Assembly: GCA_907165275.2 (NCBI GenBank)
Contig: OU015651.1
Location: 10,562,501 to 10,626,500, forward strand
Direction of reading: 5' to 3'
DNA: 64,000 nucleotides
Source: Zygaena filipendulae
Taxonomy: Eukaryota > Arthropoda > Insecta > Lepidoptera > Zygaenidae
Positions within the stretch are counted from its first letter, which is position 1. Every line of letters begins with the position of its first letter. Under the pieces are notes generated by a model. It saw only the letters and a list, made by a program, of their open reading frames with translations, searched no databases and was not told where the DNA came from. Below, one piece after another: positions 18,001 through 26,000 of this stretch. The position numbers were made by a program, and so were the translations under genes.

Positions 18001-18903
18001 GTATTTTTTCTTTTTTTACGTAATCAAAAAATAATGGCGATACATTGAGTTGAAATTTTGCATGATGTCACTAACTAGCGCAGTTTTTATGGCTGCTTGT
18101 AGCGGTAAGTGATGTCACGAGCCCCCACCCTAAACTTTAATGCGCTTTATCTCTGTGTATTTTCATTTATTTGAAAAATAATAAAAAAAAACATGTCTAA
18201 TGATTTTTAATTTTCTAAAAGACGGACTAATTAAAATTTTGATTTTTAAAAGTTGTCAACATCCCTATTCCAGGTGATTATTATCCCATATTTATATGAT
18301 AAATTTAAATATTTAATATTACATTATTGCGTCTAGTTCATATTATATTAGTTAGTGGACCCAATAATGTTATAAATAAAGATGTTGTAGCTAGATGTTT
18401 TATCTTCATTCTTATGTTAGGCTTTAAATTTTGGTTGGAACTGCTTTTGGATAAAGTTAAATAAGTTAAATATTGTTTACTCACAGGTAAAGTACAGCAT
18501 GAAATTTTGATTGTGATGTAAAAGTGTACACAAGCCTTAAACTCCTTAACATATAAAACTCTTCAGTTTGAATTTAATTAAATACATACTGAGATTATGA
18601 TCAGCATTTTTTGAATTTAAAAAATCTTTACTTAATTTTGGTTGTAAGATATTAATATAATAAGGTTTTCCATTATTTCTTTACTTTATACTTAATTTAT
18701 CATGAGTTTCTCACCTTTGACGCTGGGCAGTTAATACCTCTGGCAGAGCCAAACTCATCACTAGATTGTGGAGTGGTGGAGAAACCATGTTTCACATTGG
18801 TGGATGTGAGCTCGTCCTCTTTTTGTCGTGGTTCTTGAGGGTACACATCCGGAGGCCCCAGACGGGGCCTCTTCAGAGGCCGCTTCTCGTACATAATCCC
18901 CAT
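776..18903 (-). CDS. kto: Mediator subunit 12 (MED12, kohtalo), 28 exons, 3' end off window
   Basis: MED12 is the large scaffold of the Mediator CDK8 kinase module (CDK8, cyclin C, MED12, MED13). Its N-terminus activates CDK8, and it acts in the nucleus in transcriptional control, including Wingless/Wnt output. The N-terminal [17 protein letters not shown] block, the [10 protein letters not shown] block, the LCEWAV motif (about residues 636-641) and RHDVFSHxAYMxTLISRGD-like, [19 protein letters not shown] and ILGTSD blocks follow insect and human MED12 in order. The 28 exons join with consistent phases and GT-AG borders, giving 4,415 nt (1,471 codons plus 2 nt). I chose the ATG at 18,903 because fly and vertebrate proteins start just before the same block; the exon is open upstream to an acceptor at 18,927-18,928, so a 5' UTR exon is likely. 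The Q-rich C-terminal part is missing because the gene continues beyond base 1. Insect-specific insertions include a GTPNP repeat (exon 8), poly-Gly (exon 15) and a GV repeat (exon 18). Confidence 0.97.
960..1112 (+). repeat. 3' tail of a LINE-type retroelement
   Basis: The stretch with GCCGCAAGGCATTAAGTTCG and TTTGTACTATTTTGTG followed by AATAAATAAATAAA and poly-A looks like the polyadenylated 3' end of a non-LTR element that is common in Lepidoptera. It sits in the MED12 intron between exons 27 and 28. A related tail occurs at 56,190-56,240. Confidence 0.55.
1732..1872 (-). CDS. kto: MED12 exon 27, codons 1385-1432
   Basis: Encodes [32 protein letters not shown] and LATLKAIL. Acceptor GTGCTAG behind a GT repeat, donor GTAAGT. 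Confidence 0.96.
2051..2306 (+). repeat. Tandem duplication of a 128-bp unit
   Basis: Two nearly identical copies, 2,051-2,179 and 2,180-2,306, both starting ATTCTGGTATACAATGATTT and ending TGTCGTTTTCGTGAATT. They lie in the intron between MED12 exons 26 and 27. They differ mainly in poly-A length and a few bases, so the duplication is recent. Confidence 0.9.
2589..2771 (-). CDS. kto: MED12 exon 26, codons 1324-1385
   Basis: Encodes [20 protein letters not shown] and [17 protein letters not shown], nearly identical to fly. Acceptor CCTTCAG, donor GTAAAC. Confidence 0.96.
3180..3372 (+). repeat. GCATG-rich minisatellite and GT microsatellite
   Basis: A degenerate repeat built on TGCATGTATGAGTGCGTGCG (3,190-3,290) is followed by a GT run (3,325-3,372). 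It begins about 10 nt inside the intron after exon 25, so on the MED12 transcript it is a CA repeat close to the 5' splice site. Confidence 0.85.
3383..3603 (-). CDS. kto: MED12 exon 25, codons 1250-1324
   Basis: Encodes [32 protein letters not shown] and [12 protein letters not shown]. Very GC-rich. A GT/CA microsatellite sits just downstream of the donor and a GTGTGC-type tract precedes the acceptor. Confidence 0.95.
3978..4086 (-). CDS. kto: MED12 exon 24, codons 1214-1250
   Basis: Encodes [12 protein letters not shown] and [20 protein letters not shown], matching fly HESPANVYSFVSNALIAVCRE. Acceptor ACCAG, donor GTGAGT. Confidence 0.94.
4325..4565 (+). mobile_element. Helitron-like element (Lep1 type)
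   Basis: Begins TCTATAGGTACATATTAAAT and ends in a short GC hairpin then CTAG. It shares the CTTGGAGGGTGTGTTCTTTG segment with a degenerate copy at 36,490-36,590. It lies in the MED12 intron between exons 23 and 24. Confidence 0.65.
4614..4705 (-). CDS. kto: MED12 exon 23, codons 1183-1214
   Basis: Encodes [18 protein letters not shown], aligning with fly GYNPLLLQELFMAPRR. Too short for a simple ORF scan; identified by homology, TTTCAG acceptor and GTAAAT donor. Confidence 0.92.
4938..5112 (+). mobile_element. Helitron-like element, decayed 3' end
   Basis: Starts TACTAATATTATAGAGG and carries CCGAACCGATTTTGAAAATT and CCCCGCGGGAAC, but its CTAG end has decayed. It sits directly upstream of the next copy in the same orientation. 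Confidence 0.6.
5118..5322 (+). mobile_element. Helitron-like element, 205 bp
   Basis: Begins TCCCTACTAAGTAATATTAT and ends AAACCGCGCGGGACTGCTAG, then TT. The 5' TC, the 3' hairpin and CTAG end, and the absence of a target duplication are the Helitron hallmarks. Confidence 0.75.
5332..5798 (+). mobile_element. Long Helitron-like element, 467 bp
   Basis: Starts TCTATAGAGAGTTCAATTCT and ends GGGCACAGCTAG. It is nearly identical along its whole length to an inverted copy at 46,794-47,258, so it is a family unit and not a chance cluster. Its end lies 41 nt from MED12 exon 22. Confidence 0.8.
5840..6029 (-). CDS. kto: MED12 exon 22, codons 1120-1183
   Basis: Encodes [15 protein letters not shown] and [20 protein letters not shown]. 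The GTGTGT donor is weaker than most. The phase (2 nt left) matches exon 23, and a Helitron ends 41 nt downstream of the exon. Confidence 0.94.
6105..6465. mobile_element. Decayed MITE, GACGTCA-containing family
   Basis: Shares the ATTCTATTTAG-type terminus and the GGAGTGGGGTCCGTGACGTCA core with copies near 24,290-24,490 and 17,966-18,227. Ends are not clearly preserved here. It fills most of the MED12 intron between exons 21 and 22. Confidence 0.5.
6600..6744 (-). CDS. kto: MED12 exon 21, codons 1072-1120
   Basis: Encodes [16 protein letters not shown] and [20 protein letters not shown], matching the fly [20 protein letters not shown]. Donor GTGAGT. Confidence 0.96.
7270..7452 (-). CDS. 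kto: MED12 exon 20, codons 1011-1071
   Basis: Encodes [32 protein letters not shown]. The 3' splice site lies in a GTGCGC repeat (7,453-7,485 region) rather than an ordinary pyrimidine tract. Confidence 0.95.
7940..8052 (-). CDS. kto: MED12 exon 19, codons 973-1010
   Basis: Encodes [20 protein letters not shown] and [15 protein letters not shown]-rich in contrast to both flanking exons. Acceptor GTTACAG, donor GTAAAT. Confidence 0.95.
8332..8378. repeat. Perfect-arm inverted repeat
   Basis: TCTAGATCATGGACCAATT is followed 8 nt later by AATTGGTCCATGGTCTAGA: about 19-bp arms with one mismatch. It lies in the MED12 intron between exons 18 and 19, just beside a MITE. Confidence 0.85.
8401..8585. 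mobile_element. hAT-like MITE, 185 bp
   Basis: Terminal inverted repeats CAGGCGCAGATCCAG and CTGGATCCGCGCCTG (15 bp, one mismatch). The CAG-GC-GATCCAG form is typical of hAT non-autonomous elements. The flanks are T-rich, so a target duplication cannot be called with certainty. Confidence 0.65.
8681..8929 (-). CDS. kto: MED12 exon 18, codons 890-973
   Basis: Begins with a Gly/Ala/Val low-complexity stretch coded by a CCCACG hexamer repeat (8,868-8,886). It continues into [35 protein letters not shown] and VKKMTK, conserved from fly to human. Confidence 0.95.
9051..9133 (-). CDS. kto: MED12 exon 17, codons 862-890
   Basis: Small Met/Gly/Pro-rich exon ([20 protein letters not shown]). It has little family conservation, but its borders (TAG acceptor, GTAATA donor) fit the phases on both sides, 2 in and 1 out. 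Confidence 0.88.
9352..9488 (-). CDS. kto: MED12 exon 16, codons 817-862
   Basis: Encodes [18 protein letters not shown] and [14 protein letters not shown], matching the fly DDSNVDDDLDKLVQNI and APDSPK segment. Acceptor TTTCAG, donor GTACGT. Confidence 0.95.
9601..9822 (+). mobile_element. Helitron-like element, 222 bp
   Basis: Begins TCACTAAATAGTATAAAAC, contains GGAATTCCCACGGGAACTCC and ends ACCGCGGGGGACAGCTAG. It lies in the intron between MED12 exons 15 and 16. Confidence 0.7.
10292..10467 (-). CDS. kto: MED12 exon 15 with poly-Gly tract, codons 758-816
   Basis: Starts GDLISPTEP, then about 15 consecutive glycines coded by a GGC/GGG run (about 10,400-10,441), then [20 protein letters not shown]. 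The tract is specific to this lineage and could be length-polymorphic. Confidence 0.94.
11071..11196 (-). CDS. kto: MED12 exon 14, codons 716-758
   Basis: Encodes [20 protein letters not shown] and [10 protein letters not shown], among the most conserved blocks of MED12. Donor GTACGA in phase 1. Confidence 0.96.
11506..11613 (-). CDS. kto: MED12 exon 13, codons 680-716
   Basis: Encodes [13 protein letters not shown], then [17 protein letters not shown] as in fly MED12 (FQHVLMHFLDHDAPVL). Acceptor CCTCAG, donor GTATGT. Confidence 0.95.
12003..12100 (+). repeat. GT/CA microsatellite at a MED12 donor site
   Basis: About 95 bp of (GT)n with GC interruptions, ending exactly at the GTACGC donor of exon 12. 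On the transcript it is a CA repeat starting a few nucleotides after the 5' splice site. Confidence 0.95.
12101..12266 (-). CDS. kto: MED12 exon 12 with LCEWAV motif, codons 625-680
   Basis: Contains [18 protein letters not shown], the signature from which the Med12-LCEWAV domain is named. It is followed by a HHQHDHH stretch. The donor at 12,099-12,100 runs straight into a CA repeat. Confidence 0.97.
12589..12734 (-). CDS. kto: MED12 exon 11, codons 576-624
   Basis: Encodes [20 protein letters not shown] and [11 protein letters not shown], matching the fly LDTHCFDRMEHNNSIDTLY block. Acceptor TTGTCAG, donor GTGAGT. Confidence 0.96.
13094..13181 (-). CDS. kto: MED12 exon 10, codons 547-576
   Basis: Short AT-rich exon encoding [20 protein letters not shown]. 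It corresponds to the helical RRQLRAAES-like segment of fly MED12. Acceptor TTCAAG, donor GTACTT. Confidence 0.93.
13807..13956 (-). CDS. kto: MED12 exon 9, codons 497-546
   Basis: Encodes [14 protein letters not shown] and [17 protein letters not shown], nearly identical to the fly block. Phase 0 at both ends; donor GTAACC. Confidence 0.96.
14009..14351 (-). mobile_element. Helitron-like element with internal insertion
   Basis: Reads CTAG at the left (3' end) and TCAATACTAATATTATAAAG at the right (5' end, minus strand). About 130 bp of AT-rich DNA interrupts the usual family sequence. It lies in the intron between MED12 exons 8 and 9. Confidence 0.65.
14576..14940 (-). CDS. kto: MED12 exon 8, codons 375-496
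   Basis: The largest exon here. It begins with a variable Pro/Thr/Asn segment containing four GTPNP units, then enters the conserved [17 protein letters not shown] block. The repeat is coded by a GC-rich stretch (about 14,740-14,850) and may vary in length between alleles. Confidence 0.94.
15238..15416 (-). CDS. kto: MED12 exon 7, codons 315-375
   Basis: Encodes [20 protein letters not shown] and [14 protein letters not shown], matching the QYMHDFVQSERLCRKMAY region of the fly protein. It has much higher GC at third positions than exons 2-5. Confidence 0.95.
15871..16054 (-). CDS. kto: MED12 exon 6, codons 254-315
   Basis: Encodes [20 protein letters not shown] then [16 protein letters not shown], the start of the LCEWAV domain. 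Donor GTAACA in phase 2. Confidence 0.95.
16320..16424 (-). CDS. kto: MED12 exon 5, codons 219-254
   Basis: Ser/Thr/Pro/Asn-rich linker ([20 protein letters not shown]) in the position of the variable fly linker. It has no domain of its own. Acceptor TCTAG, donor GTGAGT; the phases fit both neighbours. Confidence 0.9.
16888..17001 (-). CDS. kto: MED12 exon 4, codons 181-219
   Basis: Encodes [20 protein letters not shown], which aligns with the fly EWTGNMIKFMKELLPKLQEY block. Acceptor TTTCAG, donor GTAAAT. Confidence 0.95.
17105..17296 (-). CDS. kto: MED12 exon 3, codons 117-181
   Basis: Encodes [20 protein letters not shown] and [12 protein letters not shown], the core of the MED12 domain. 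The acceptor is AATTAG and the donor GTTTGT; joining gives DLAG-SKPL and TTE-WTTT. Confidence 0.95.
17629..17788 (-). CDS. kto: MED12 exon 2, codons 64-117
   Basis: Encodes [17 protein letters not shown] and [11 protein letters not shown], then AWFKDLAG, the conserved start of the MED12 N-terminal domain. It runs from a TTCCAG acceptor to a GTACCT donor and ends in phase 1. Confidence 0.95.
17966..18227. mobile_element. Harbinger-like MITE, 262 bp, TAA duplication
   Basis: Ends GTCCGTCTTGTAGA and TCTAAAAGACGGAC (14 bp, one mismatch) are flanked by TAA on both sides. A TWA target duplication fits the PIF/Harbinger superfamily. The core CCCACCCTAAACTTTAATGC recurs near 24,390 (inverted), so it is one family. 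It lies in the first MED12 intron between coding exons. Confidence 0.75.
18715..18903 (-). CDS. kto: MED12 exon 1, codons 1-63
   Basis: Starts [16 protein letters not shown] and ends PASK before a GTGAG donor. The reading frame stays open upstream to a TTTCAG acceptor at 18,927-18,932, so this is probably the second transcribed exon. A second in-frame ATG at 18,894 is an alternative start. Confidence 0.93.
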
Positions 18904-18926
18904 TATGTCAGGGTAAATAGATAGAT

Positions 18927-19898
18927 CTGAAATAAACATTAAATAAGCATTTATATACAAGTGACTACTACGTATACAAAATGTGTAGTGTTGTTTACTG
19001 TCTATGTACACACCTTTCATTTAAAGAATTCTAGAACACATGATTTTTAATAACACTAGAATATTAGGAAATTTGTATTATTAGCCAAAAACTACATGAT
19101 TTGTATATTCTATTAATAAATTAAGGAAATATGATGGTAATCTGTAAATTTGAAGAATTACAAAATAAAACGCTAATTTTGGTGGAAGTAAAGTCAACCA
19201 CAAATTAACTAGACTTATGTCTAAAGAAAGTCAACTGTCAAGTAATTAGACATATTTTGTAACTGTCAAACAATTTTTTTTGTTTTTTTTTTGTTTTTAC
19301 CCCAATGGGGAAGGCAAAGGAAGTAAGTCCATAATGCCAATTCAGTAGTATTTTCTTTTAGTTATTTACATCGAAAGGAATTGGTGAGATGCATTTCGAT
19401 GCTTTCCTGGAACTTTTAGTAGCAATTCTTCACAGTTGAACTTTAATAGGACGCTCTGTGGGAAGTTGTGTAGTAAAACGACAACCTCCTGATGAACGCC
19501 CCATTGCCCCCATCTTATCTTATTTCACTGTTTCCACACACGGTTCATCACTAATGGATCACTAATATGCAAAATCCATCACATTCACAAAATATTAATC
19601 ATGATAAATTAATTTGCAAAACAAATAAAAAATAACTGACGTCCGTCACTGCTAAAATCCCGCGAACACCTATTTTTTTTTTGTTAAATTTACCCTAAAT
19701 TGAGAAGAAGAAAATACTACTGAATTGGCTGTATGCTGTACTTCCTTTGCCTACCCCATTGGGGTAAATAAAAAAAAACGTTTTAGGTTAGAGAGAATTA
19801 ATTTAATTTTATTTTCATTTAGTGTTTTTGTAATTTGCGGTTGTCGAACCGGATGCATTGATTTATTATTATTATAGCTTAGAATTTCCTAACTTCCA
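18927..19898. promoter_or_regulatory. Shared upstream region of MED12 and PIN4
   Basis: The start codons of MED12 (minus) and PIN4 (plus) are 996 bp apart and point away from each other. This gap must hold both promoters, and probably a MED12 5' UTR exon because coding exon 1 begins at an acceptor. No TATA element in a convincing place was seen. More than half of the space is taken by an inverted-repeat element (19,281-19,779). Confidence 0.6.
19281..19779. mobile_element. Foldback element with about 78-bp inverted arms
   Basis: Left arm 19,281-19,358 and right arm 19,700-19,779 are inverted copies, sharing TACCCCAATGGGG, GGCAAAGGAAGTA and CCAATTCAGTAGTATTTTCTT. It lies between MED12 and PIN4. 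No enzyme is encoded, so it is a MITE or foldback element. Confidence 0.8.
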
Positions 19899-19989
19899 AT
19901 GCCACCAAAAAAGCAGGCAGATAAGGCTGCTAAAAGTGGAACAAGTGGTAAAGGTAGCAGTGGTGGAAAATCTGGCGGTGATGCAAAAG
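19899..19989 (+). CDS. Pin4: PIN4 exon 1, basic Gly/Ser tail
   Basis: Starts [14 protein letters not shown], matching the MPPK start of Par14 proteins. It ends in phase 1 at a GTTACC donor. Too short and biased to be found by ORF length alone. Confidence 0.92.
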
Positions 19990-21392
19990 GTTACCTAGCT
20001 ATTACCAGCTAATTAATATGAAGAATTGTTTTATCGAGTTGTTATAGGTTGGCAGGAACAGCGGTTTTACCCACGTCAAAGGATTCGTTAGGATTTAGGG
20101 AAGGACTGGACTAGTATTACTTCTTAAGCGCTTATATTACACCTTGCAATTTCAGGGCACCAATTTAGGGTGCTAAATCGGATACAATTTAGGGTCGGTG
20201 AGTGAGAGAGAGAAAGAGAGTAATCACACTACACTAAATTGTACCCTAAATCGACTACTCTAGGGTACATTTTAATGTAGTGTGATCACTCGCTCTCTCT
20301 CTCTCACTTACCGAACCTAAATTGGAACCAACTTAGAGTGAAATTGCAAGATGTAATGAGTGCTTTAGGAATAGTCGGTCACCATTGAGAGCCCTCAATA
20401 TAGTTAGTAGCGCACAGTCCTACAGCGAACTAGTATGCTTATTTTGTTTGTTAGTGCTCTTTTTAAATTTTCAATAGATCTTATTACAAAAATGAAATGT
20501 TGATAAACTAGTTCATGTAAAGAAGCACTCTTCCACCTAGGTTGTTCGAAAACTACCTACCCAACACTACTCTGGACCTCTTTGATTTAGTCTGTGCTAT
20601 GTTGCTGTAGTGGTGTGGTGCACCAATTTGTATTCAAATTTTTTTTAACATAAAGAAAGAAATATCCTTGATGAGTTTCCTTTCAAAAATAGTTTTTTTT
20701 TAAATAATAATAAATGAATCAAAATCCATTAAGGCCCGCCGCCCATTGTGACTTTTTGTCGACGTGACTTTCTGTCACTTATGAAAAATGTACTGAGGTC
20801 ACCGTATTGTCACGTCACCATAATGAGCGCACTCAGTATAGTTTTCATTGCACTTGACTAAGTGACAGAAAGTCACGTCGACAAAAAGTCACAATGGGCG
20901 GCGGGCCTTAGTAGGTAGTTTAAATGAATCAAGCTGCATCTTTCTCTGGGTGCCCACCATGCAGTAGTTAAAATATTATACTCTTTGGTGGGGCATGCAG
21001 AGAAAGATACAGTTTTTGTCTTTGTTTTATATTTATACAGTATTTTGACCTTTTTATTATTTTCAAATTTAGAATCAACTGCAAAAGAGAAAAAGGGTGG
21101 GACAGCTGTCAAAGTCAGGCACATTCTTTGTGAGAAACAGTCAAAATGTTTAGAGGCGTTGGAAAAAATAAAAGCTGGTCAGAAGTTTCCTGATGTAGCA
21201 GCTGCATACAGTGAGGACAAGGCCCGGCAAGGTGGCGACCTAGGTTGGATGACCCGTGGTTCTATGGTTGGGCCATTTCAGGATGCTGCTTTTGCCTTGC
21301 CTATATCCACAGTCAACAGTCCTATTTACACAGACCCACCCATCAAGACTAAGTTTGGTTATCACATAATTATGGTTGAAGGGAAAAAATGA
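19899..21392 (+). CDS. Pin4: Parvulin peptidyl-prolyl cis-trans isomerase (PIN4/Par14), 2 exons
   Basis: Catalyses cis-trans isomerisation of X-Pro bonds. The human orthologue PIN4 (Par14) acts in nucleus and nucleolus, with roles in ribosome biogenesis and chromatin. Exons 19,899-19,989 and 21,073-21,392 join in phase 1 (GTTACC donor, TTTAG acceptor) to give 136 residues, about the human length. Residues 1-40 are a Lys/Gly/Ser basic tail, as in Par14, with no WW domain. The parvulin domain spans about 41-136: VRHILC (45-50), [15 protein letters not shown] (76-90), [10 protein letters not shown], and [13 protein letters not shown] at the end. The intron (1,083 bp) carries two hairpin MITEs. 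The stop codon overlaps the ATG of the next reading frame. Confidence 0.97.
20122..20365. mobile_element. Long hairpin MITE in PIN4 intron
   Basis: Arms of about 100 bp fold on each other: the left has ATTACACCTTGCAATTTCA, CAATTTAGGGTCGGTGAGTG and a GAGA run, and the right holds their inverted counterparts, with about 40 bp between. No coding capacity. Confidence 0.8.
20731..20909. mobile_element. MITE with 51-bp perfect terminal inverted repeats
   Basis: 20,731-20,781 (starting AAGGCCCGCCGCCCATTGTG) and 20,859-20,909 are exact inverted copies, and the inner 77 bp is partly palindromic too. Flanks are consistent with a TA target duplication, as in Tc1/mariner-type MITEs. Perfect arms suggest a young insertion. 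Confidence 0.92.
21073..21392 (+). CDS. Pin4: PIN4 exon 2, parvulin domain
   Basis: Encodes the whole catalytic domain from [13 protein letters not shown] to the TGA at 21,390-21,392. Open reading upstream of 21,073 is intronic, ended by the TTTAG acceptor. Confidence 0.97.
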
Positions 21393-22132
21393 GTGATATA
21401 ATGTTCGAATTTGAATATTTCTGGGCAATACTATTGTTGTTCATTATGGAGATAATCTGTTGCTTACAAGAACAATTTGACAAAGACTTCTCAGTTCTGC
21501 CAGACCCACAACTATCAATTGAGTCTTTTCATTCTGATATTGAGGATTTTGCTAATAGAGAGTAAGTAATATTATATAAAAGTATGGTATGATAGTATAT
21601 TGAACAATGACACCCAATTTTTAGACCCTATGAGTTTTGGTTCTTTAAGCTGGGAGAACTTCAGGGATTTAAAAATAGGTTGTGGTGTTCTTAAAATGAA
21701 CTGCGCAGAAGCACAGATAAATACTTGGGTTCTTACAAACCTTCAAAATACTTGGTAAAATTTCAGTATAATATAATCAGGCAAAGGGAGATTCTGGTTT
21801 TGGTTTAGTTTTTAGTGATAACACTACTAGGTTCGGGACTTATTGACCAATAACTTCTAATATTTTTTTATTAAATGCCCAAAACTTCTAGTAATTTTTT
21901 AATAAATGCCCAATAAAAGCTGGTTTTCAAAATAGCTTTAAACAACTTGTGCCTCAATTGTTTCAGTGGAACTTTAAAACTGAGCTTTCTGCGTCTCTGT
22001 CGGCTCATGCATATGACTATGCTCCTGACCTTAATATACTTTTGTAACATTTGCTTCTGGTTCATAATGAGCAAGAAAACTATGCCTAGAAATCTTTCAT
22101 ACAAGTTTGGAGTGTCTGTACCATCTCGTTGA
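21389..22132 (+). CDS. Unrecognised 112-residue two-pass membrane protein, second cistron after PIN4
   Basis: Exons 21,389-21,561 and 21,967-22,132 join in phase 2 through a strong GTAAGTAAT donor and a TTGTTTCAG acceptor, giving 112 residues and a TGA stop. The ATG shares ATGA with the PIN4 stop and has an AAAA context. An in-frame TGA 10 bases upstream shows the frame starts fresh here. Residues 11-26 ([16 protein letters not shown]) and about 73-92 ([18 protein letters not shown] core) are hydrophobic, so a small two-pass or signal-anchored membrane protein is likely. Between them lies an acidic stretch ending [17 protein letters not shown] do not recognise the family. No promoter fits between it and PIN4, so a dicistronic or alternatively spliced mRNA is inferred. 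If unspliced, the frame ends at once with a stop after residue 58. Confidence 0.65.
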
Positions 22133-22408: not shown

Positions 22409-22414
22409 AATAAA
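22409..22414 (+). terminator. Candidate poly-A signal for PIN4 transcript
   Basis: AATAAA 277 bp after the second cistron's stop on the plus strand. It is the first good match downstream of 22,132; an earlier AATAAA near 21,900 lies in the intron of that cistron. Confidence 0.4.
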
Positions 22415-22723
22415 TTAGCAGTCTTTATTGACAAAATATATTAACTACCTACTTAAATCGTAAAACAACTTCAATGTTAACCATTAACACAACAGATTAA
22501 ATAAGTAGCTTATTTTATTAATAAATACATTTTTAATGAGGTAATCCTAACAGGTTATATTAAAATCATTAAATTGGATTTTAATATTTTTGTCACAAAC
22601 GTGATGATATCTGTAACTCTGCAGCGGAAGACCAGTGTCGGGTCCCTAACGGTTCCCGGCTTATGCCAAGCTGGTTGACATTTTGTTGCGAGACGCCTTG
22701 TGCTTCTTTTTTGTTGTTGCATA

Positions 22724-22917: not shown

Positions 22918-23091
22918 TCAGACTCTGAGGTTGGGGTTGGTGTAGCGAACGTATTTGAGCAGCGCGTCGTTCTCCTCGCAGACGAAGGGCTTGACGTGGT
23001 GGCACGCCACGTCGTGCCAGTGCACGCCGTCGTTGTAGAAATTGTTGAGGATCGCCACGCAGTGCTCCGCAGCGCCGCCTTGCAGCAACTC
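22918..23091 (-). CDS. C-type lectin coding exon 4 (last)
   Basis: Encodes ELLQGGAAEHCVAILNNFYN, DGVHWHDVACHHVKPFVCEE and the terminal NDALLKYVRYTNPNLRV, then TGA. Another frame of this exon gives a longer but spurious ORF. Confidence 0.95.
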   Translation of the reverse strand, partial: ELLQGGAAEHCVAILNNFYNDGVHWHDVACHHVKPFVCEENDALLKYVRYTNPNLRV

Positions 23092-26000
23092 CTGATACGG
23101 GAACGGTCATTTTAACGCTAAGCCGTGAACATATTAAGTGAGGGATACCTACATTGGAAACGTCGCGTCGACTGCATGGCACCCGTGGCCAGCACGGAAG
23201 GGGTTCTTTATTTTGACCAATTTTGTACACTGAACAGTATAGTATTATATTATCTGTGACTGAACTAAAATAATTTTCTGGTATATTGGTAACATCAAAC
23301 AAAAAACCGGTAGGTATCTACGCTTAGCCGGTAGAATGTTATTTTTTTTTTCCATTAGAGAACAAAAAATACACGCTATCGCAATCGATCAACGGAAAAC
23401 CGAGTTAACATTGGTTGAAACTCCCTAATCACAATTTATCTTTACTTCTTTAAAAAAGTAGAGATACTTAGATGACATTCTATATGTTGGTCTCTTTTCA
23501 TATAGTAAAATATAAATAGTACCTCAGAGTAATGATAGTACCTATAGCTAATAGTGGTTAAATGTGTAATTACATAGGTACCCGACATATTGGAACTATA
23601 TGTGGATCGATCATCGCATTAAAAGTGGACCCGTATCGAACATATAGGAACTTTCTAATTCAGCTATTGTTTCGAGCTACCGTTTCTACTCTGATAGTAG
23701 CCTAGTAGGACAAACCCTGTGGGTGGGACAATGGGATAGCTAACAGCATTGACTTCTTATTAGATTGTCGGTTTTCTTTATCTAGATGGCATTTATATTA
23801 ATAGAGGTATCGAGCTAGATAAGCCTGGGACCTTATTCGCTATGATCATCGACATTTCTTGCCCATAACGCAGGTCCCAAAACACAATCCCAAATGCTCC
23901 AGGTGCTAAAATATTACAAACTAGCTGTTCCCCGCGGTTTCACCCGCGGTAATTTTGGAGTTCCCGCGGGAATTCCGGGTTATAATATAGCCTATGTCAC
24001 TCAGGAATAATGTAGAATTCTATTGGTAAAATAATTTTCAAAATCGGTTCCGTCGATCCAGAAATTACCCCCTACAACCTTACAAAGTCACAAACTTTAC
24101 CTTTTAAAATATTAGTATAGAATGTACTCCTTGTACATGGGGGACGATACAACTCATACAACTCTTCACATATCTTCAGACACACAGACAAGAGTTCCAT
24201 CCACTCACTCACTACATTAATATTCTGTAAGCCATAATGGGTTGAGAGTTAAGACACGTTGTAAATAAATTTTTTAGAAGTGACCCTTTGAGCACGAGGG
24301 AAAGACAAAAGCGTAGTTTCCGGTGTGTGAAAATCAAAATTCTATTTAGTCAGCATTTTCATTTTCAAATTACCTATTGTAAAAATACTAAGATAAAACG
24401 CATTAAAGTTTAGGAGTGGTGCCTCTTGACGTCATAACGTGCTATAACCTGTAGCACGGTGTCACGTCGTCGCTAAAAACCTTATTCAGACTATTGCAGT
24501 AGTTTCTATTCTTTCCTATTACGAACATTTAAAAGAAAATGCACTATCGGTCTAGCCATTTTCAAGTGATGTGTTTACCAACGAATGTGTTTAACAAAAT
24601 TTAATTTTTTATCATCTATGTAAAGGCTAATCTACTATTAAAGAACTACTGAACCGATTCCAAAAACTTTTCCAGCTAATCTAAACCTTCAATAGTACAG
24701 ATTTTTTTTTTATTATATATGTAGGTATATCTACAATACAACCATAAAACCTTTGACACCTCGGAGATGCGGTGACACAACGGAAATGGATAATCCACGT
24801 ATGCGACCGCAGAAACAAGAAGTTGCGTTATTGTTTGAGCCGCGAACGCGTGCGCTGCCATGCCAGGGAAAGCGACTCGCAAACAACGCGGCGACGCGCC
24901 ACGAATAAAGTTATGTTTTGTTGTTCGGCCCACGGCATTTGTTTAAGGCGCATGGAGTCGTGAAACGATCATTTTTGAGGCCCTAAAGCTCATAAATTAG
25001 CCTACTGACGATTCCAGAATTAACATATATTAAAGATTGATATATGAACTTCAATCTGAGCATTTAAATAAATTGTAGTCTACAAAATACTATTCAAAAA
25101 AAAACATTGAAATGAAGCTGTTTTCAACTTGAAATACGCTACTGCTTCTAAACTACAAGTGATAATTTCACGATTCTTTCAGGAAAAGATTGCTAACTTG
25201 TTTAACTTAAAACTGAGCATTTATCGTTCCAAAATAATACATAGTTTTGACGAAATGTTTTTTATACCACATTCACTACAAATGGTCACGAGCGGGTCCG
25301 TGCGCGGGCGACGGGAGTCAGTCTGGCGCTGGCATTCAAACGGGTAGGCTGTGCGTCGCGCTGTCGCAATCCGCTTGGTTACGCCAAATTAATTTTGTGA
25401 GCAAAATAAGGTAGCGACATCAAAAATGCCACGAAAAAAAAAGCTGCAAAAAGTTGGGCAACTGGACTTCACTGAATTTTAATTATTGGTTCATTGTATT
25501 TTTTTGTAACAAAAGGCAATTTTATAAACACATTTTTGTTTTATTACTTTCTTTTACTAAATTAATCAATAAATTAATAAAAATAAAAATATACAGCTAC
25601 AGCATTTTAGATATCGGAAAATATACAGCAATTTTCTATCTGCATACAAATCGAAGAATGCTGTAAGTAGTAAAACCTGTTTCCTTGTAACTTTAGTGAA
25701 AATATTTTAATTGCAACTAACATTAAGGTGGGTCTAAAGGTCTAGTTTTCATACAAACTGCCGTAGCTATATTAAAGGCATTCCGCCTGTTTTTATTTAT
25801 TAGACTTCATTTAATAAAATACTACTACTTGTTACGATAACGCACAGCCCAAAATCTTTGCATATTATAGTGAAGAAATAACATAATTACAATCATTTCA
25901 AAATGAATTAAATTTCGGTCGAACCTTTGCTTGTGTGAGAGAACGAATACACTTATAAGTGTACGAAAATGGCGGCCCGGTCTATAAACAGCTGTAGTTA

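Follow-up and report, generated by a model that had tools for sequence, protein, structure and literature searches.

A small gene, conserved in Lepidoptera, that begins on the PIN4 stop codon in Zygaena filipendulae, probably as part of a two-gene transcription unit

Whether a short open reading frame (ORF) that opens exactly where another one closes is a gene, and by which route it would then be expressed, is the question raised by the PIN4 locus of the lepidopteran Zygaena filipendulae. The window analysed here is the whole stretch of 64,000 nucleotides (nt) corresponding to positions 10,562,501-10,626,500 of contig OU015651.1 (forward strand), and all positions below are window coordinates. 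In this window, PIN4 is followed by a second frame, ORF2, whose ATG shares an ATGA with the PIN4 stop codon, an arrangement that an earlier note, made from the letters alone, had proposed to be a dicistronic locus pairing a prolyl isomerase with a small membrane protein. The analyses presented below indicate that ORF2 is almost certainly a genuine gene with a conserved overlap, and that the whole is probably best explained as a conserved two-gene transcription unit of Lepidoptera. The features concerned are the following.

19899..19989, plus strand: PIN4 coding exon 1, with the start context CTTCCA-ATG, weak by Bombyx data
21073..21392, plus strand: PIN4 coding exon 2, ending in GGG AAA AAA TGA; Pfam PPIC-type PPIase
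21389..21392, plus strand: ATGA in which the ORF2 start overlaps the PIN4 stop, ORF2 being in the -1 frame
21389..21561, plus strand: ORF2 coding exon 1, covering codons 1-57 and the first two bases of codon 58
21401..21403, plus strand: second in-frame ATG of ORF2 (Met5), eight bases past the PIN4 stop
21410..21466, plus strand: first hydrophobic segment, residues 8-26, running into a conserved 15-residue block
21562..21966, plus strand: intron 2, GTAAGT...TTTCAG, phase 2
21901..21917, plus strand: two AATAAA in intron 2 (21901 and 21912), a candidate early poly(A) site that the PIN4 mRNA may use
21967..22132, plus strand: ORF2 coding exon 2, with its stop TGA at 22130-22132
22013..22069, plus strand: second hydrophobic segment, residues 74-92, followed by SKK
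22409..22525, plus strand: two AATAAA (22409 and 22520) that may serve a long transcript as distal poly(A) signals

The PIN4 product has 136 residues with a C-terminus in ..VEGKK, displays a PPIC-type PPIase domain (PF13616, E 4.3e-20; PF00639, E 1e-15; Pfam) and has a named moth PIN4 as its best database match (E 1.5e-73), in agreement with its first identification as a parvulin. The ATG at 21389 is composed of the last A of PIN4's final lysine codon and of the TG of its TGA. Joining the two ORF2 exons gives 112 residues, with the overlap, the intron and the matching phase located exactly as the earlier note had placed them, while read-through of the intron 2 donor would give GAG TAA and a 58-residue ORF.

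That such an arrangement is hard to get by chance had been argued from its fit and is now borne out by the relatives detected. A search with the single ORF2 sequence returned 8 relatives out of 9 candidates (E <=10; best E 3.9e-37), 7 of which are named Lepidoptera, and a profile search returned 44 rows out of 2095 candidates (E <=10), ranging from 3.7e-47 to 0.10 for the weakest (P0045). Because ORF2 is conserved in the relatives found by both searches, its occurrence as a chance ORF was ruled out. All 10 rows of the profile search that carry an organism label are Lepidoptera, namely Arctia plantaginis, Colias eurytheme, Parnassius mnemosyne, Danaus chrysippus, Brenthis ino, Loxostege sticticalis, Chilo suppressalis, Mythimna loreyi, Cydia pomonella and C. 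fagiglandana. Seven of these species (all except Brenthis, Chilo and C. fagiglandana) were looked up and represent seven families (Erebidae, Pieridae, Tortricidae, Papilionidae, Nymphalidae, Crambidae and Noctuidae); all seven are Ditrysia, the oldest moth lineages being outside the sample. Of the 10 labelled rows, three are PIN4 fusions and five are shortened, with their start at an inner Met, and ORF2 is mostly unannotated in Lepidoptera. Its restriction to this order is not claimed, absence elsewhere being weak evidence because the search detects proteins that have 5-residue words in common and because such genes are easily missed by annotation. Pattern searches for the DNA of relatives gave 94 matches in viral contigs and 3 in genome contigs, with no relative in either.

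The other 34 rows carry no organism label, 33 of them corresponding to exon 1 and one, the genomic-looking P0013, to exon 2. All but two of the 33 (P0009 and P0014, which continue beyond) stop at an E, the counterpart of the residue just before the read-through stop of the window, and spliced ORF2 models resume at the matching place after that E. The position of intron 2 hence appears conserved among relatives, as judged at the protein level, the relatives' own stop codons lying outside the comparison. In the 11 spliced models (window included), exon 2 identity averages 72% over 36 residues (55 pairs, range 53-89%), and both the 15-residue core block and the second helix are strongly conserved in relatives. 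These data bear on the reading in which the 58-residue unspliced form alone is made, the PIN4 mRNA ending in intron 2 and the join to exon 2 being a prediction artefact. The predominance of exon-1 ORFs among unlabelled rows, two of which are transcript-like, and the AATAAA at 21901 and 21912 would fit this reading, but the conservation of exon 2 as protein, even at its minimum, and the fact that exon 2 is reached solely via the intron-2 splice in that phase, with P0013 also holding it, make it very improbable.

Conservation of the stop-start overlap itself can be read from proteins, since a PIN4 TGA that uses the last two bases of the ORF2 ATG forces codon 2 of ORF2 to begin with A and thus to encode I, K, M, N, R, S or T. 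Residue 2 fits such a codon in 26 out of 26 rows that begin at the first ATG (the window and 25 unlabelled rows); all seven of these residues occur there and none of the other thirteen. When 22 aligned 58-residue sequences (window included) were considered, 13 columns contained at least 5 residue types, of which column 2 alone fits a single first base. A FastTree phylogeny of the remaining part of exon 1, weak and based on a short sequence, requires by parsimony at least 12 changes of residue 2, and the probability that all 12 changes would keep the A by chance is about 0.003 (average per-change 70/113). The first-ATG rows are mostly, not wholly, independent (P0022/P0025 and P0035/P0039 are >90% identical) and the spacing is off by one residue in P0022, P0025 and P0045. 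The count leaves aside eight rows whose call begins at the second Met (P0009, P0014, P0015, P0018, P0021, P0024, P0027 and P0034) and in which the first ATG may be missing or merely not chosen, as well as the two Cydia models, the inner-Met or fused models and P0013. The ATGA overlap appears conserved in a conditional sense: where the first ATG is present, the PIN4 stop lies on it. The unlabelled P0017 and the Arctia model differ, over their common exon-1 part, near its end only.

In the two Cydia models (P0004 and P0005), which align with P0043, the first Met lies three codons earlier; their residue 5, a K, occupies the place of residue 2 and fits. Their three-residue N-terminal extension (MEE/MDE) would fall within the last PIN4 codons, so that a changed PIN4 C-terminus is predicted for this genus, with a W-x-x ending if ORF2 starts inside PIN4. 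No Cydia PIN4 occurs among the matches listed, which are 120 of 2662 rows and to which all statements on PIN4 rows refer.

Adjacency of the two genes was also observed outside Zygaena. In the three labelled species having both among the matches listed, PIN4 and ORF2 reside on records of identical length (Arctia, 8,815,210; Colias eurytheme, 13,019,461; Loxostege, 19,087,369), with consecutive locus tags in Loxostege (ABMA28_011891 and ABMA28_011892). In the Logan rows, the longest-sequence lengths of ORF2 and PIN4 coincide exactly in four cases (905, 1341, 1375 and 1497) for 0.32 expected from shifted lengths (P 0.00025), the comparison setting all 32 unlabelled ORF2 rows against 25 listed Logan-only PIN4 rows and deducing a common molecule from length. 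ORF2 and PIN4 appear, from these records, to be neighbours in relatives. At 905 and 1341, the PIN4 member of the pair is full-length, continues without a break over the intron 1 site and looks like complementary DNA (cDNA), while the ORF2 member comprises exon 1 and an intron-2 donor that is still unspliced; the partners of the 1375 and 1497 pairs have the appearance of genomic DNA. The two cDNA-like pairs therefore suggest a PIN4 mRNA that extends beyond its stop, through ORF2 exon 1 and into intron 2. It is quite probable that ORF2 is sometimes carried on one mRNA with PIN4, and a dicistronic mRNA spanning both ORFs is likely. As in dicistronic loci, both ORFs are conserved as protein, and the three gene models that join PIN4 and ORF2 were counted as indirect support for a common mRNA.

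These three models (P0008, P0011 and P0012, from Brenthis, Chilo and Mythimna loreyi, respectively) are annotated as PIN4-ORF2 fusions in which the PPIase domain lacks its C-terminal part. Their junction is RGSM/EQFD in both Chilo and Mythimna and RQ/ERICC in Brenthis. True alternative splicing was rejected as their origin, two junctions being alike and the third different, with no in-frame GT-AG equivalent in the window; they are presumably models forced into one frame. The PIN4 of Mythimna separata (P0087) is normal.

Alternatively, ORF2 could be a separate gene with its own promoter in PIN4's intron or last exon, the ATGA being a by-product of compact spacing. The earlier note had stated that there is no promoter space between the two genes, which is literally true, but a promoter inside the PIN4 intron or exon would satisfy that observation as well. 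The ORF2 of C. fagiglandana and C. pomonella are annotated as LOC genes of their own, and the five other labelled species with a shortened frame have a separate ORF2 model from the inner Met. Moreover, for the 159 dicistronic gene pairs of Drosophila melanogaster (FlyBase release 6.04), passages of PMC4528330 give monocistronic isoforms of one or both genes at 114 loci (45 + 69). This alternative is nevertheless considered unlikely: by the 905- and 1341-base matches, ORF2 exon 1 and a spliced PIN4 seem to belong to the same molecules, and Danaus plexippus, Papilio xuthus, Galleria, Manduca, Bombyx and Plutella are found on listed PIN4 rows and on no ORF2 row, as it should be without a separate transcript, a point weakened by the rows being 90% clusters that name few members and by pipelines that may skip small genes.

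Several observations weigh against a shared mRNA that is spliced and translated through the overlap. The spliced 112-residue ORF2 occurs in none of the 34 unlabelled rows, two transcript-looking ORF2 rows are unspliced at intron 2, and, outside the window, spliced ORF2 comes from 10 gene models, which may or may not rest on RNA; the two Cydia models, being separate genes, may mean an own transcript. From the unspliced rows and the absence of spliced ones, it follows that a PIN4 mRNA ending inside intron 2 probably exists too, or is even commoner. The overlap test is built on unlabelled rows, no labelled relative beginning at the first ATG, and since eight unlabelled exon-1 rows begin at the second Met, the first ATG may be dispensable. 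On the side of translation, seven ATGs (three in the PIN4 frame and four out of frame) lie between the PIN4 and ORF2 starts, and the viral UGGGA motif, the core of the 18S-complementary motif 1, is absent in the 150 bases upstream of 21389. Of the dicistronic locus first proposed, the gene, its intron and the overlap are thus upheld, the shared mRNA is indirectly supported by the 905/1341 pairs and the fusion models, and the splicing is matched by no unlabelled row.

A weak first start followed by a good second one is the defining trait of the stoned-type leaky-scanning dicistron and is found in the window, where CCA precedes the PIN4 ATG and AAA (-3 to -1) that of ORF2. In that type the first cistron is without in-frame AUGs, whereas PIN4 has three internal ones, all of which end on the overlapping TGA. 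An insect tricistronic mRNA, with a moth as host, is reportedly translated by context-dependent scanning (a case attributed to Kanamori in 2010); the present locus resembles it in being from an insect and in having several ORFs chosen by start context, and differs in that a 136-codon ORF with seven internal ATGs intervenes. Such a case lends some credit to the reading in which ORF2 is reached on a shared mRNA mainly by leaky scanning past the weak PIN4 start, combined with hops over short frames. The same holds for the ATG at -17, which has an A at its own -3 and opens a 6-codon frame ending on the overlapping TGA, and for the two start contexts, poor for PIN4 and good for ORF2 when compared to the Bombyx consensus (passages of PMC4320137), in which AAA also occurs. 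Because seven ATGs intervene, however, plain leaky scanning is hard, and its role as the main route is doubtful.

An overlapping stop and start is the layout of AUGA-type coupled termination-reinitiation; it is present in the window, and 26 of 26 first-ATG rows are compatible with it. Coupling at AUGA or UAAUG has been described for feline calicivirus, for influenza B M1/BM2 and for five human transcripts (passages of PMC3035654 and PMC5972666). As in the calicivirus form, the AUGA here follows a long first ORF and the second product is small; unlike in viral coupling, UGGGA is absent upstream, and coupling is proposed from sequence for a cellular insect gene. The five human transcripts have no sequence resembling a termination upstream ribosome-binding site (TURBS) while mouse GAD mRNA has a putative one; coupling in human transcripts can be weak, with about 82-fold less product in one case, and reinitiation after a long cellular ORF is called presumably very rare (all from passages of PMC5972666). 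Since the AUGA layout is known and the human cases are also without the motif, reinitiation is favoured over leaky scanning and over an own promoter, and its chance of being the main route to ORF2 is put slightly below even.

The -1 frame of ORF2, directly after GGG AAA AAA, also evokes a ribosomal frameshift at the six-A run before the TGA, which would produce a PIN4-ORF2 fusion, i.e. a membrane-anchored parvulin, and fusions are indeed annotated in three species, though not by frameshift at that place. The heptamer G AAA AAA, however, does not fit the classical frameshift pattern X XXY YYZ, and a further Met at ORF2 position 3, 4 or 5 in 26/26 first-ATG rows (Met5 in the window) points to initiation. 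As the annotated fusions are without the C-terminal PPIase part and have junctions not makeable in frame from GT-AG sites of the window, a frameshift origin of the product would be most surprising.

The ORF2 protein of the window (P0001) matches no Pfam family, and of the 36 members of the ORF2 alignment (A3) seven match DUF6594 alone, without significance (best E 0.057). Searches of solved structures by sequence gave no match at E 10 with either the ORF2 protein or its profile, and Foldseek, run with the model of a Cydia relative, gave 23 matches, none of them informative, with a best E of 4.1. A known family was consequently rejected at the sensitivity of the Pfam and solved-structure sequence searches, as the earlier note's inability to assign the protein had anticipated. 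The two hydrophobic segments it had noticed were recovered, with Kyte-Doolittle means over 19 residues of 2.16 (residues 8-26) and 1.94 (residues 74-92). The AlphaFold2 model of the Cydia relative, of low confidence (mean predicted local distance difference test, pLDDT, 67), displays two long helices at 2-41 and 59-103. ORF2 hence appears to encode a previously undescribed small protein with two hydrophobic helices, which would sit in the membrane as a helical hairpin. In mammals, PIGY/PREY likewise combines a small protein having two hydrophobic segments with an unrelated ORF upstream; the likeness is one of layout only and no sequence relation is claimed.

The fly PIN4 is presumably CG11858. 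A search of the main text of PMC4528330 found no mention of CG11858. The Zygaena locus resembles the Drosophila dicistronic loci in having two conserved tandem coding regions, the second of which is small and mostly missed by annotation, that probably reside on one mRNA; it differs from them by its stop/start overlap as ATGA, kept in many relatives, and by a shared mRNA that is deduced. The dicistronic kind is thus known from flies, the new part being the apparently conserved ATGA overlap and the undescribed, putative membrane protein. A literature search found no title about the PIN4-ORF2 locus in open-access papers, which is no proof of its being unpublished.

Other observations relate to PIN4 and to the surroundings of the locus. 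The PIN4 model of Leptosia nina (P0088) has another C-terminal tail after IIM in place of VEGKK, due to either an annotation error or an alternative splice. On the minus strand, 18700-19020 corresponds to the N-terminal coding end of Mediator subunit 12 (MED12; PDB chain 8tq2_C, E 6.1e-20), this fragment having no Pfam match; MED12 and PIN4, being divergent, may have a common promoter region. Between them, 19286-19778 contains a 40-nt inverted repeat (93%) with inner 28-nt arms (93%), presumed to be a foldback insertion or one resembling a miniature inverted-repeat transposable element (MITE) in the presumed promoter region. Two more MITE-like structures were detected, an inverted repeat in PIN4 intron 1 whose perfectly matching 52-nt arms are 77 nt apart (20730-20910) and an inverted repeat with 76-nt arms (86%) at 20173-20336. 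Finally, 22918-23106 on the minus strand, convergent with ORF2, is a possible C-type-lectin C-terminal exon with weak matches only (tetranectin, E 0.071) and none in Pfam.

Within the two-gene transcription unit favoured here, a single promoter upstream of 19899 would drive a PIN4 transcript with two 3' outcomes. Cutting at the intron-2 AATAAA signals would give a PIN4 mRNA whose 3' region contains ORF2 exon 1 only, and splicing of intron 2 would give a dicistronic mRNA with the full 112-codon ORF2. Ribosomes ending PIN4 would halt over the ORF2 ATG and a fraction of them would reinitiate there or at the ATG eight bases past the stop, while a minor share of the product may come by leaky scanning past PIN4's weak start. 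Coupling would tie the membrane protein to PIN4, at a low and constant level in every place of PIN4 synthesis. In its fullest and more tentative form, this proposal would make the locus a nuclear animal operon kept across many lepidopteran families, with AUGA-coupled reinitiation and with intron-2 splicing versus early poly(A) deciding between the full-length protein and a 58-residue one-helix form.

The limitation of the residue after the start Met to A-starting codons provides a cheap, protein-only test of stop-start overlaps. For the Lepidoptera, the locus adds a conserved and little annotated gene family and, if the coupling is true, it would offer a natural test case, kept in many species, of ribosomes that reinitiate once a long cellular ORF has been translated.
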